From IMG/VR virus record IMGVR_UViG_3300021185_001174, positions 1 through 64,000 of that record: a stretch of 64,000 nucleotides of DNA. One strand, given 5' to 3'. Under the pieces are notes generated by a model. It ran no database searches, had not been told where the DNA came from, and saw only the letters and a list, made by a program, of their open reading frames with translations. This document shows, piece by piece, positions 18,703 to 23,434 of this stretch (position 1 is its first letter; every line of letters starts with the position of its first letter). This stretch comes from a virus. The translations under genes were made by a program, and so were the position numbers.

Positions 18703-19149
18703 ATGGCTTATAGAGGGAAATATACAATTAAACGTAAAGATAAATATCTGGGTGATGCATCCAGTGTAGTTTATCGTTCATTATGGGAAAGACAAGCATT
18801 CAAGTGGTGTGAGAGTAACCCTAAAGTAAAGAGATGGAATAGTGAAGAGATAGTTATTCCCTATAAATGTAAGACTGACAATAAGTTGCATAGATATTAT
18901 GTTGACTTATTAATAGAATTAGATAATAAAGAAATCATCTTGGTTGAAATTAAACCAAAGAAAGAAACATCACCCCCAAAAAAGCCCTCTCGTAAGACTA
19001 AAAGATATATCAATGAGGTTATGACATACATTAAGAATCAATCTAAATGGGAAGCAGCACAACAATATGCAGACCATAAAGGATGGAAGTTTCAAGTATG
19101 GACTGAAGATACTTTAGGCAATCTAGGTATCAAACTACTGAAAAGTTGA
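18703..19149 (+). CDS. 4: Head completion protein gp4
   Basis: A 148-residue basic protein matching T4 gp4 (gp50/4 head completion, 150 residues): YRGKYTIKRKDKYLGD, then VVYRSLWERQAFKWCESNP and NKLHRYYVDLLIEL-EIKPKK, a TnsA/endonuclease-like fold with the D-ExK pattern (D near residue 69, EIK near 86). gp4 acts on the packaged head before tail joining. In T4 it lies beside gp53; here it heads the divergent plus-strand block, 54 bases from the baseplate operon. Confidence 0.88.
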   Translation: MAYRGKYTIKRKDKYLGDASSVVYRSLWERQAFKWCESNPKVKRWNSEEIVIPYKCKTDNKLHRYYVDLLIELDNKEIILVEIKPKKETSPPKKPSRKTKRYINEVMTYIKNQSKWEAAQQYADHKGWKFQVWTEDTLGNLGIKLLKS

Positions 19150-19178: not shown

Positions 19179-19772
19179 ATGGCATCATTATTCGATACAC
19201 TACAGGCTCAGGCATTTAAGGCTGGCATAACTGCTCGGACTAAAAAGTCTCAGAAGTGGTTTCGTGATAAGATTGAAGATATGAAGACCCCTGACAGAAG
19301 GGCTTTATTAAAAGATGATGCACTAGAACCTACTACAAGAGAATTAAGAGGTTCAATGTATATGTATTTCTATGACCCTAAACATAAAAAGACTTTGCCT
19401 TATTATGATAGATTCCCTTTAGTTCTTTTAATAGAACAAAGAAAGGGTGGGTTCTTAGGATTAAACTTACATTACTTAAGACCCGATATACGTGCTAAGT
19501 TTTTAGATGAATTGATGAAACTATCAGCAGGAAAGATTACTGATAAGTCAAGATTAATGAAAGCACGTTATGATTTAATTTCTAGTACTAGAAAATATAA
19601 AGAGTTCAGACCATGTTTAAAAATGTACTTAAGTAATCATATTAAATCAAGAATGGTAAGAGTACCTATGAGTGAATGGGAAATTGCAATCTTCTTACCA
19701 ACAGAACAATTTAAGAAGAGTCAGAAATCCAAAATATGGGCTGACTCTATTAAAATCGCGAGACAGACCTAA
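19179..19772 (+). CDS. Conserved marine T4-like tail-block protein
   Basis: A 197-residue basic protein. A central block (ELRGSMYMYFYDPKHKKTLP, then PLVLLIEQRKGGFLGLNLHY) is strongly structured. No enzyme motif, signal peptide or membrane segment is seen. An AGGAG site and its own late promoter precede it, and its stop overlaps the next start as TAATG. Placement between gp4 and tube/hub genes suggests a tail or head-tail assembly role. I do not recognise a T4 counterpart. Confidence 0.75.
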   Translation: MASLFDTLQAQAFKAGITARTKKSQKWFRDKIEDMKTPDRRALLKDDALEPTTRELRGSMYMYFYDPKHKKTLPYYDRFPLVLLIEQRKGGFLGLNLHYLRPDIRAKFLDELMKLSAGKITDKSRLMKARYDLISSTRKYKEFRPCLKMYLSNHIKSRMVRVPMSEWEIAIFLPTEQFKKSQKSKIWADSIKIARQT

Positions 19773-20404
19773 TGAATATAGATAAGTTAAAATCAACAAT
19801 AGGTAAACGTGGTGGTATTGCAAAGGCAAATAGATTTAAAGTTATGTTTACACCACCACAACAAAGTTTACTTAATATAGACCCAGGTGCAATTTTTACT
19901 AGTGTAATTTCAGGAGATGGCATTAATTTAAAAAGTCTTATTAATGACCCTCGCGATATTTCTATGTTATGTACATCAGCAAGTATTCCTGGCAGACAGT
20001 TTAGTACTGATGAAGTAACTATGGAAAGACAAACAGTAAAAATGGTTTATGGTTTTATTGATGAAGATATTACATTTACATTTTTACTTACAAACGATAT
20101 GTATATGAAGAAGATGTTTGATGATTGGTCATCTTCAATTATTGATGATGAAGCATATACATTAAATTATAAAAAGAATTATACCGCAGATGTTGTAATA
20201 CAACAATTAAATTTAGATGATAAAGTTGTATATGGCGCAAAGTTAGAGAATGCATATCCAATATCTATCTCTCCTATAGAATACTCTATGGACTCAGAAG
20301 AAATTGGAACATTTACTGTTACATTTGCATATGATAAATATAAACTAGAAGACGCAGTAGAGTCAGGATTGTCTGGTATTACTTCGGCACTAGAGATATT
20401 ATAA
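19772..20404 (+). CDS. Tail tube-fold protein, gp54/gp19-like
   Basis: A 210-residue protein of the contractile-tail tube fold: N-terminal KANRFKVMFTPPQQ strand, a middle TVKMVYGFIDEDITFTFLLT hairpin, and near the C-terminus the diagnostic AYPISISPIEYSMDSEEIGT followed by FTVTFAYDKYKL, equivalent to the end of T4 gp54 and gp19. Length is between gp19 (163) and gp54 (320). Next to gp26 and the tape measure, the role is probably baseplate-tube junction; a main tube gene would normally sit with the sheath gene outside this window. Confidence 0.7.
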   Translation: MNIDKLKSTIGKRGGIAKANRFKVMFTPPQQSLLNIDPGAIFTSVISGDGINLKSLINDPRDISMLCTSASIPGRQFSTDEVTMERQTVKMVYGFIDEDITFTFLLTNDMYMKKMFDDWSSSIIDDEAYTLNYKKNYTADVVIQQLNLDDKVVYGAKLENAYPISISPIEYSMDSEEIGTFTVTFAYDKYKLEDAVESGLSGITSALEIL

Positions 20405-20434: not shown

Positions 20435-21157
20435 ATGGCACTACCAATTGTAAATTCCTCACGTTATGAGGTAACAATACCAAGTATGAATGTGAAGGTT
20501 GAATATAGACCTTTCTTAGTAAAAGAAGAAAAGTTACTAATGGTTGCACTAGAATCTAAGGATGATGGTTTAATTGTTAGGTCATTAAAGGATGTTATAC
20601 GCTCATGTGTGTATGACGATATTGATGTAAATAATCTAACTACCTTTGATTTAGAATTCTTATTTTTAAAATTAAGAGCAAAGTCAGTGGGTGAAACAGT
20701 AGAGTTGAAGTTTCCGTGCGAAGGTGAAGAATGTAAACAAACAATACCAGTTAGTCTTAATTTAGAAGAGATTGAGCTACAAGGTATCGACCCAGATAGA
20801 ATAGTAATGGTAACAGATGAGGTGGGAGTTCAGTTTAACTACCCATCACTAGATGTGATAGAGAGTGTAAGTATTAAACCTGAATCTTCTCAAGAAGAAC
20901 AACTAAAGGCGACTCTAGGTTTAATTGCTTCGGCTATTGGAAATATATTTGATGCTGATAATGTATATCCAGCGTCAGATAGTAGTACTAAAGAATTAAC
21001 AGAATTTCTTGATGAACTTAATTCAAGTCAGTTTAAAAAGATTGCAGATTGGTTTAGTAATTTACCTTATCTTGCAAAAGATGTAGAATATAAGTGTAAT
21101 AAATGTGGACATGAACATAATATGGAGTTAAGAGGTCTCCAAAGTTTTTTTACATAG
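20435..21157 (+). CDS. 26: Baseplate hub assembly protein gp26
   Basis: A 240-residue protein of the T4 baseplate family (gp26): VKVEYRPFLVKEEKLLMVAL near residue 20 and FDLEFLFLKLRAKSVGETVE near residue 70 are the signature blocks. A treble-clef-like CNKCGHEH lies near the C-terminus, and an earlier C-x4-C (CEGEEC) lies near residue 96. An AGGAG site precedes the ATG at a normal distance. The last sense codons are TTT TTT ACA before TAG, and the run of seven T at 21145-21151 allows a -1 slip into an overlapping frame (21151-21348) that encodes a gp51-like tail. It precedes the tape-measure gene, where tail chaperones with frameshifts are usual. Confidence 0.85.
   Translation: MALPIVNSSRYEVTIPSMNVKVEYRPFLVKEEKLLMVALESKDDGLIVRSLKDVIRSCVYDDIDVNNLTTFDLEFLFLKLRAKSVGETVELKFPCEGEECKQTIPVSLNLEEIELQGIDPDRIVMVTDEVGVQFNYPSLDVIESVSIKPESSQEEQLKATLGLIASAIGNIFDADNVYPASDSSTKELTEFLDELNSSQFKKIADWFSNLPYLAKDVEYKCNKCGHEHNMELRGLQSFFT
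21145..21151 (+). promoter_or_regulatory. Probable -1 ribosomal frameshift site
   Basis: Seven T in the phase T TTT TTT: both codons can re-pair perfectly one base back. The gp26 frame stops two codons later (TAG at 21155); the -1 frame stays open to 21348. A Shine-Dalgarno-like AAGAGGT lies at 21130-21136, 8 bases before the run, a position that stimulates -1 shifts in the dnaX manner. A 6-bp stem (21167-21172 with 21181-21186) follows at a longer than ideal distance. Confidence 0.6.
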
Positions 21158-21348
21158 GCCTTTGTCATGATTCACTAGTAAATCATTATAAAACAAACTT
21201 TGCTATGATGCAACATCATAAATATAGTTTAACTGAATTAGAAAATATGATACCATGGGAAAGAGAAATATATTTGGCTTTACTAGAAAATCATATTAAA
21301 GAAGAAAATGATAGGATAAGGGCTCAAAATAGAAAAGGAGGAATGTAA
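21151..21348 (+). CDS. gp51-like extension of gp26 in the -1 frame
   Basis: From the slip site the -1 frame codes for 65 residues without interruption (YIGLCHDSLVNHY, then MIPWEREIYLALLENHI). The W-E-R-E-I-Y pattern is the short acidic-helical kind found at the end of tail chaperone extensions such as T4 gp51 and gpGT/DUF7936-type proteins. The first internal ATG (21205) has no ribosome-binding site, favouring a 304-residue gp26 fusion over independent translation. Initiation at 21205 would give 47 residues. The stop overlaps the next start as TAATG. Confidence 0.65.
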   Translation, partial: YIGLCHDSLVNHYKTNFAMMQHHKYSLTELENMIPWEREIYLALLENHIKEENDRIRAQNRKGGM

Positions 21349-21674
21349 TGGAAGAAGAATTAAAAAAGAGTGGACATCATCCAGCCGATGTTAATGGTGA
21401 TGGTTATGTTACTCCTGACGAACAGAAAATGTATTTAGAGTTTAAGAGAAAAGAACTTGAAGATGCAGATGCAATGAGAGATGCCCAAAGAAAGATGGCA
21501 TGGTTTGCTCTCGGTGGTATGTTACTATATCCATTTGCAGTTGTATTGGCAGTTCTTCTTGGATTAGATTCAGCAAGTAAAATTCTTGGAGATATGGCAG
21601 CGACATACTTCGTTGCAGTTGCAGGTATTGTAGCGGCATTCTTCGGGTCACAAGCATTTGGGAATAAGAAATAA
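21348..21674 (+). CDS. Small membrane protein with EF-hand-like loop
   Basis: A 108-residue protein. Residues 15-26 (DVNGDGYVTPDE) match a calcium-binding EF-hand loop (D-x-N-x-D-G-x-x-x-x-x-E). A charged helix follows, then two hydrophobic helices (about 50-70 and 80-102) able to cross a membrane. A GGAGG site stands before the ATG, which overlaps the preceding stop. The position between the tail chaperones and tape measure is conserved in marine T4-like phages in my recollection; function unknown. A virion-associated or injection-related membrane role is a guess. Confidence 0.75.
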   Translation: MEEELKKSGHHPADVNGDGYVTPDEQKMYLEFKRKELEDADAMRDAQRKMAWFALGGMLLYPFAVVLAVLLGLDSASKILGDMAATYFVAVAGIVAAFFGSQAFGNKK

Positions 21675-21676
21675 TC

Positions 21677-23434
21677 ATGGCCGATAATAAAAAATTAAGA
21701 GAAAAGAATAAAAAGGAAGCAGCTGCAATAAAGAAAAAGCAACAAGAGTACCAAAATGAAAGAAAAGGTAATATGGTACAAATTGCTGAAGCACATAAAT
21801 CTCTCTTAGAAAGGGCCAATAAAGCCATACAAGATGGTAATAAGGAACAAGGTAAAGGTTTAAAAGAAAGGGCTTCACATTTTGCAAAAGTTCTTAATGG
21901 TGATGGCCGTAAACTTAGTAATGATTATTTAAAAAATATACTAGAAGCTTCTGAACAACAAGACCTAGACTCAAAACAAAATTTAGATGCAGTCAGACAG
22001 GCAATCGAAAAACAAACACAAGAAGATATTAAGTCCACAAAAAGGGCGGAGGCTGTAGCAGCAGCGGCACCTCTTTCTGAAGGACTTGCAGGAATTTCTG
22101 AAAATATAGCAAGGGCCAATGCGGCCGAAGTGGCCAGAGAAAAACTTGGCCAGAATACTATGGGCAAAAGACTTGATAAACTAGGTAATGTATTTGGTAA
22201 AGCCGCAAGTGTGGCTGATGTAAAAAGAGCCAAGGAATTAAAAGAACAATATAAAAGAGTATCCGAAGCACTAGAAAATGCAAAGGCTGGTGGTAGTGAA
22301 GAAGAGATTGAATTAGCACAACAACAAGTAGATGCACTAGATGCAACAGTAGGTGACGAAGAGAGTAGAAGAGAACAAAGTAAAAAGGCTGACGAGGCCA
22401 ATAGCATACTTCATGGTATAAAAGGTTATAGTGAAGAAATGGCTAGTAAGTTTGGAGATTTAGCAAAGGGTGGTGGATTTATCGCTGGTCTTGCTGGTGT
22501 AGTTCTTGCTCTCTTTAGTCCAGAAACATTTATTAAAATAGTAAATACTGCAATTGAAAAGGTTATGGTAATAGTTGACTTTATTAAAGACCTTTTCGAA
22601 CTTGATTTTGCAAGTGCATTCGAAACTTTTAAAGAAAATCTTGGACTGTTCTCTCTTATTGCTGGAGGTATACTTATATACTTTGGCCCTGCATTAATAG
22701 GTGGTATAATTTCTGTAGTTAATGTAGTTAAGACTGTAGGACTCTTTATGAGAGTAACAATGTTTCCTGCAATAACTACTATGTTTACTTCAATGGCCAC
22801 AGCATTCAGTGGTATGTTAGCCGCAATGGCTCCATTCTTAGTTCCTATTCTTGTGGTTGTAGCCATCATAGGTGCAATAGTTGGTACTGTTATGTTACTT
22901 AGAAATAGTTTAGGCGAAGGCGCTACTATGATGGACGGACTATTATTAGGTTGGAGTTATATTAAAGATGGATTTGCAAGAGTTAAAAATATGTTCTTAA
23001 CTTTGGCAGAAAGTATTATAAGTGGTTTAGATTGGGTTAATCCTATATTAGAATTCTTTGGTAAAGCACCAATTGCGTTTAATGAGATTAAATTTGACAG
23101 AGCCGCTACTGATAATGCACAAAAATTTAGAGATGGCCAAGCCGAAAGAGTTGCCGCAAGAAAAAGAGAAGAGGCAGAAGCTAAATTAGATGCCGCCCGT
23201 CAATCCAAGGCGGCCCAAGATTCTGCTGCTCTAGAAGCTGGAAAGTTAGGTACAACTTCATCAGAGGCTGCATCCATAAGTTCATTCGAAGCCGCAATGG
23301 CTAAAGGAATGAGTATGAATACAGGTAGTCAGGTTGTTGGTGTTAATAAAACAGATATTAATAACTCTGTAGTTGTAGGTGTTGGTGGAACAACAGAAGG
23401 AAATAGAGCTCTTAGAAATTCTGATAGTATGTAA
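21677..23434 (+). CDS. 29: Tail tape-measure/hub protein, gp29-like
   Basis: A 585-residue protein, almost exactly the length of T4 gp29 (590). Residues 1-260 are Lys/Glu/Ala-rich coiled coil; 265-415 contain three or four hydrophobic segments (GGGFIAGLAGVVLALF, LFSLIAGGILIYFGPALIGG, VPILVVVAIIGAIVGTVML) typical of tape measures that enter the membrane on injection; 490-540 is another Ala/Arg/Glu helix, with a Ser/Gly-rich tail. It follows the gp26/gp51 chaperone pair, as tape measures do in other tailed phages. It ends 9 bases before the gp32 terminator, from the opposite side. Confidence 0.8.
   Translation: MADNKKLREKNKKEAAAIKKKQQEYQNERKGNMVQIAEAHKSLLERANKAIQDGNKEQGKGLKERASHFAKVLNGDGRKLSNDYLKNILEASEQQDLDSKQNLDAVRQAIEKQTQEDIKSTKRAEAVAAAAPLSEGLAGISENIARANAAEVAREKLGQNTMGKRLDKLGNVFGKAASVADVKRAKELKEQYKRVSEALENAKAGGSEEEIELAQQQVDALDATVGDEESRREQSKKADEANSILHGIKGYSEEMASKFGDLAKGGGFIAGLAGVVLALFSPETFIKIVNTAIEKVMVIVDFIKDLFELDFASAFETFKENLGLFSLIAGGILIYFGPALIGGIISVVNVVKTVGLFMRVTMFPAITTMFTSMATAFSGMLAAMAPFLVPILVVVAIIGAIVGTVMLLRNSLGEGATMMDGLLLGWSYIKDGFARVKNMFLTLAESIISGLDWVNPILEFFGKAPIAFNEIKFDRAATDNAQKFRDGQAERVAARKREEAEAKLDAARQSKAAQDSAALEAGKLGTTSSEAASISSFEAAMAKGMSMNTGSQVVGVNKTDINNSVVVGVGGTTEGNRALRNSDSM

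Follow-up and report, generated by a model that had tools for sequence, protein, structure and literature searches.

A predicted programmed −1 frameshift in gene 26 of a marine T4-like phage and its relatives

In a marine T4-like phage, gene 26 is very probably the source of two tail assembly chaperones, formed through a programmed −1 ribosomal frameshift, as predicted from its sequence and those of its relatives. The window analysed here, 64,000 nucleotides of a 120,810-base viral record, carries a slip heptamer close to the end of the gene, a Shine-Dalgarno-like element just ahead of it and a −1 frame that encodes a gp51-like tail. An earlier note on this DNA had proposed a frameshift joining gp26 to such an extension, and both the conservation of the signal and the selection acting on it support that proposal. 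Among the explanations that we weighed, programmed −1 frameshifting is by far the best.

Gene 26, its slip site and its neighbours

The gp26-like open reading frame (20435–21157, plus strand, as are the slip signals and the neighbouring frames between 19772 and 23434) encodes 240 amino acids and would give the short form of the chaperone, TAC-N. It matches PF12322 over profile positions 3–218 of 219 (E 6e-61; 206 bits against a cut-off of 24.5) and phrog_150 (E 4e-64). In codons its 3′ end reads TTA AGA GGT CTC CAA AGT TTT TTT ACA TAG. The anatomy is as the earlier note described it: T TTT TTT (21145–21151) lies in the phase of the frame that starts at 20435, the Shine-Dalgarno-like AAGAGGT (21130–21136), a putative stimulator, is followed by 8 nt and then the heptamer, and the 0 frame closes at the second codon past the heptamer (ACA, then TAG at 21155–21157), leaving an open −1 frame of 65 codons that runs from 21151 to the TAA at 21346–21348. 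The pairing energy of AAGAGGT with the anti-Shine-Dalgarno is −6.5 kcal/mol. Reading through the slip would give a gp26–gp51 fusion of 304 amino acids, the predicted long form or TAC-NC. T TTT TTN is scarce in the window: its 71 frames of at least 100 codons carry it in phase five times in 20,014 codon positions, and the copy in gp26 alone is situated within 10 codons of a stop.

The extension itself (21151–21348) matches phrog_634, a family labelled 'baseplate hub assembly catalyst', over profile positions 58–119 of 121 with an E value of 1e-29, and this tail, conserved-looking in the earlier note, also matches the C-terminal end of phrog_150. Its secondary structure is predicted to be helical. 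For gp26 an AlphaFold model was used (pLDDT 91), in which the first 85–95 residues match 3fgx, 2ob9 and 3klu with Z scores of 8.0, 7.6 and 6.9, the next row falling to 4.4. These are the top three of 846 chains, and 2ob9 is the HK97 tail assembly chaperone, with an rmsd of 4.2 over 84 residues, a modest match. Foldseek with the same model gave no significant PDB match (E 0.69), and neither the gp26 nor the tail sequence had a match of note among solved structures. The modelled fold of the N-domain agrees, modestly, with a chaperone fold.

Directly upstream lies the gene for a gp19-like tail tube protein (19772–20404; phrog_45, E 3e-39; Phage_TTP_2, E 3e-6). Further upstream, a gp4-like head closure protein (18703–19149; phrog_218) also matches the N-terminal domain of the TnsA endonuclease (PF08722, E 5e-19). 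On the other side the tail had been placed directly before the tape-measure gene, which is slightly wrong because a frame of 108 amino acids (21348–21674) intervenes, 68% identical to the frame in the same place of HTVC008M. Its product contains an EF-hand-like DVNGDGYVTPDE loop, the C-terminal half is hydrophobic, and no clear family was found for it in Pfam or PHROG. The putative tape-measure frame that follows (21677–23434, 585 amino acids) takes its label from its position only, as Pfam and PHROG offered nothing of note. Homology to the HTVC008M tape measure was considered and set aside after a comparison with the N-terminal 381 amino acids of that protein gave no significant match. In Synechococcus phage S-N03 the large frame in the tape-measure position (locus L092, 1733–3198) is annotated as a chitinase, which seems doubtful from its place.

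Conservation of the −1 phase and translation of the tail

Scanning viral contigs with the tail identified 80 loci among at least 600 places encoding a relative, and scanning with gp26 added two more. At every one of these loci the tail is offset by −1 from the gp26 frame, and the match starts at the slip site. Conservation was counted over 77 distinct IMG/VR metagenomic relatives and 17 isolates. Slip-site conservation in relatives had been suggested as a check, and T TTT TTN together with the −1 phase is kept in 77 of the 77, although the identity of gp26 falls to around 30%. The heptamer is TTTTTTT in 34 relatives, TTTTTTC in 28 and TTTTTTA in 15, and the 0 frame closes two codons past the heptamer in 63 relatives and one codon sooner in 10. 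Elsewhere in the gp26 genes of the relatives T TTT TTN is rare (14 of 17,730 positions) and is found at any single place in three sequences at most.

The same heptamer and phase are present in 15 of the 17 isolates. These include cyanophages, Pelagibacter HTVC008M, Methylophilales Melnitz-3, Vibrio nt-1 and D490, as well as Sinorhizobium phiM12, Caulobacter Cr30, Rhizobium AF3 and LG08, and Agrobacterium Atu_ph04. The two others, Salmonella Vi01 and Vibrio K388 (Ackermannviridae or similar), have the variant sites A ATT TTC and A CTT TTC with the tail still in the −1 frame. In gp26 genes of the Ackermannviridae (Vi01, PhaxI and phages of Dickeya, Serratia and Klebsiella; L099 1438–2241, L104–L106, L108 and L109) the end likewise carries a conserved −1 tail, which records leave without annotation or label hypothetical, and ATT TTC ATT TAA, in a GAR or TCA-type context, replaces T TTT TTN. 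Vibrio phage Bakedbeans (L107) has GAT TTT TTC ATT TAG and a similar tail. Since re-pairing in the P-site at ATT would be poor, slippage in the Ackermannviridae may rest on one tRNA.

Most database records present gp51 as a separate gene, those of HTVC008M, P-SSM2 and S-PM2 among them giving it its own coding sequence, and an ATG at tail codon 20 or 21 (21205 or 21208 in the window) is indeed found in 72 of the 77 relatives. The earlier note had seen no ribosome-binding site for such a gene, and the relatives agree: none of the 72 ATGs is preceded by a Shine-Dalgarno sequence, the mean energy being +1.1 kcal/mol compared with −5.3 at the gp26 start. Four relatives lack any ATG across the first 33 tail codons. 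The codons ahead of the ATG are also informative. Tail codons 4–19, bounded by the usual 0-frame stop on one side and the first usable ATG on the other, have a pS of 0.75 and a pN of 0.16 in the −1 frame and vary most at the third positions of that frame, with no such purifying pattern for the same codons in the 0 and +1 frames. This stretch therefore evolves as a −1-frame protein and is translated, whereas initiation at the internal ATG would leave it untranslated and would explain neither the heptamer nor the upstream GAGG. Taken together, the translated upstream codons, the ATG without a Shine-Dalgarno sequence and the relatives with no early ATG make an independently started gp51 very unlikely on the sequence evidence.

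Selection on the slip signal

The slip site, the Shine-Dalgarno-like site and the −1 coding frame are all under selection, and for the first two this can be seen at positions that the protein leaves free. The codon ahead of TTT TTN is AGT, AAT, GAT, TCT or GCT, its third base being T in all 77 relatives (P about 2e-18 given codon usage). The Glu codon 17 nt ahead of the tail start is GAG in 27 of 41 sequences against a background of 25% (P 4e-8), and the Leu codon preceding Glu is TTG in 15 of 26 against 16% (P 1e-6); all of these P values count related sequences as independent and so overstate the strength of the effect, which makes them strong rather than exact. The two codons, both rare choices among their synonyms, together form GGAGG. 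The mean anti-Shine-Dalgarno energy in the relatives is −6.4 compared with −5.0 in synonymous shuffles (SD of means 0.2), and the best pairing mostly falls in one narrow place, around 10 nt 5′ of the heptamer. Synonymous positions show, then, that there is selection on the RNA itself.

These observations bear on two further explanations, both of which produce the tail by other means than a ribosomal slip. As the slip run is poly-T, and bacteria are known to show slippage on homopolymers, RNA polymerase might make mRNAs with an altered number of U residues. In 43 of the 77 relatives, however, the run is only six T, followed by C or A, and six-T runs are shorter than those usually reported for slippage. 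Slippage during transcription would also give no role to the selected Shine-Dalgarno-like element and would not account for the exact retention of the codon phase in the relatives, and we consider it improbable to much the same degree as the internal start. Alternatively, ribosomes stopping at the TAG at 21155 might resume translation close by in the −1 frame and make gp51 as a separate peptide by translational coupling, as the stop adjoins the tail and the Shine-Dalgarno-like element is only a few bases 5′ of it. There is no conserved start codon near the stop in the relatives, however, the alignment shows protein conservation from the slip site onward, and restarting would leave unexplained why the base ahead of TTT TTN is fixed as T; coupling would seem the least probable of the explanations.

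A stimulatory RNA structure downstream is an optional part of a programmed −1 frameshift. RNAalifold on 74 sequences predicts no pair 3′ of the slip site, which speaks against a single stem-loop common to all relatives. The window has a weak A+U-rich stem of 5+6 bp at 21161–21192 (z −1.1), the role of which is doubtful. A perfect stem of at least 8 bp is present in 13 of the 77 relatives, where synonymous shuffles lead one to expect 4.2 (and no more than 9 in any of 100), and the mean stem length across all relatives is not above that of the shuffles. Strong hairpins at the usual spacing are confined to some lineages, where compensatory changes can be seen, from GGGCTCTC/GAGAGCCT to GGACTTTC/GAAAGTCT in one small group and from GGCAC/GTGTC to GGCTC/GAGTC in the P-SSM2 group. 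Hairpins would thus be accessory in these lineages, whereas the upstream Shine-Dalgarno-like element, from the selection acting on it, is the probable general stimulator.

Two chaperone forms in T4-like phages

Frameshifts in phage tail assembly chaperones, such as that giving lambda gpG and gpGT, were reportedly described by Xu, Hendrix and Duda in 2004. The arrangement predicted here resembles that of lambda in having a −1 slip close to where the first frame ends, a minor fusion product and a presumed place in the interval between tail tube and tape measure, the latter being assigned here by position and separated from the tail by the 108-residue frame. It differs in its poly-T heptamer, in the conserved Shine-Dalgarno-like element and in the larger N protein of 240 amino acids, and no sequence match of gp26 to gpG was seen, the modest fold match to the HK97 chaperone being the only link.

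The equivalence to T4 gp26 and gp51 that had been suggested holds when the T4 proteins are examined. The gp51 of T4 and of Aeromonas phage Aes012 is 249 amino acids long and matches PF12322 in full (E 4e-52 and 2e-45), the tail forming its C-terminus, and gp26 in both is a short form encoded on the strand opposite to gp51. The families are thus shared with the window (PF12322 and phrog_150, with phrog_634 for the tail), as is the presence of a short and a long form, but T4 and Aes012 have two separate genes where the window has one gene with a slip site. It would seem that the two genes of T4 do the job of the one frameshifting gene here. T4 gene 26 (locus L084, 1803–2090) also has an annotated internal in-frame start, giving gp26′, and T4 may therefore make yet another form of the chaperone. 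T4 gp51 has been reported to be needed for tail assembly and to be absent from the virion (PMC3004832).

The T4-like TAC-N/TAC-NC pair was described, according to the papers that cite it, by Vladimirov, Gautam and Davidson (2022; Virology 566:9–15; PubMed 34826709). The PRFect authors (PMC10885494) cite that study for some T4-like phages carrying a short and a long TAC gene rather than a frameshift, an account that the genes of T4 and Aes012 match, and the paper on phage Adele (PMC12846349) cites it for poly-T slip signals in T4-like TAC-N genes. Going by these citing papers, the principle is already published. Phage Adele itself represents the TAC frameshift of the Vandenendeviridae and Andersonviridae (PMC12846349), which likewise has a conserved −1 poly-T site (GTTTTT) ending TAC-N, though in another virus family and with a motif that is shorter as reported. 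Closest in arrangement are gp26 and the short 'gp51' of P-SSM2, S-PM2 and HTVC008M, which share the gene order, the heptamer, the −1 phase and the early stop; they differ only in sequence divergence, gp26 of the cyanophages being around 38–40% identical to that of the window at best, and in being annotated as two genes. Sullivan et al. (2010; PMC3037559) gave the cyanophage gp51 as around 20% of the usual length, and the word frameshift is absent from their text. This analysis adds how widely the site is conserved, the mark that the proposed upstream stimulator has left on codon choice and a corrected annotation of gp51; the phage trick itself is well known.

From the anatomy of the site, its conservation, the selection on it and the form of T4 gp51 we infer a T4-type TAC-N/TAC-NC pair, analogous to lambda gpG/gpGT. 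Most ribosomes would end at the TAG at 21155 and release the 240-residue gp26. A minority would be held back by pairing of their 16S rRNA with AAGAGGT and move back by a single base on T TTT TTT, the P- and A-site tRNAs re-pairing with TTT and TTT, and would then read the 65 codons of the tail to give the 304-residue fusion. By analogy with lambda, binding of the tape-measure protein would fall to the N part and recruitment of tube or hub proteins to the tail part, with the ratio of TAC-N to TAC-NC presumably set by the efficiency of the slip.

We can suggest, tentatively and at slightly less than even chances, that a slip driven by an upstream element, with no general downstream structure, is the ancestral route to TAC-NC in T4-like phages, that it was altered to R ATT TTC in the Ackermannviridae and that the separate gp51 of T4 arose by a later gene duplication. 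If so, an unannotated slip would be in use in hundreds of sequenced myoviruses. With its very even conservation and its codon-level Shine-Dalgarno trace, this site would serve well as a model of −1 slips that depend on a signal upstream. The tail is matched by 553 phage records, and hundreds of public records probably have a wrong gp51 start or a split gene. As far as can be told from sequence, the 'gp51' of marine T4-like phages would be the C-terminal part of a frameshifted chaperone and not a stand-alone baseplate hub catalyst.
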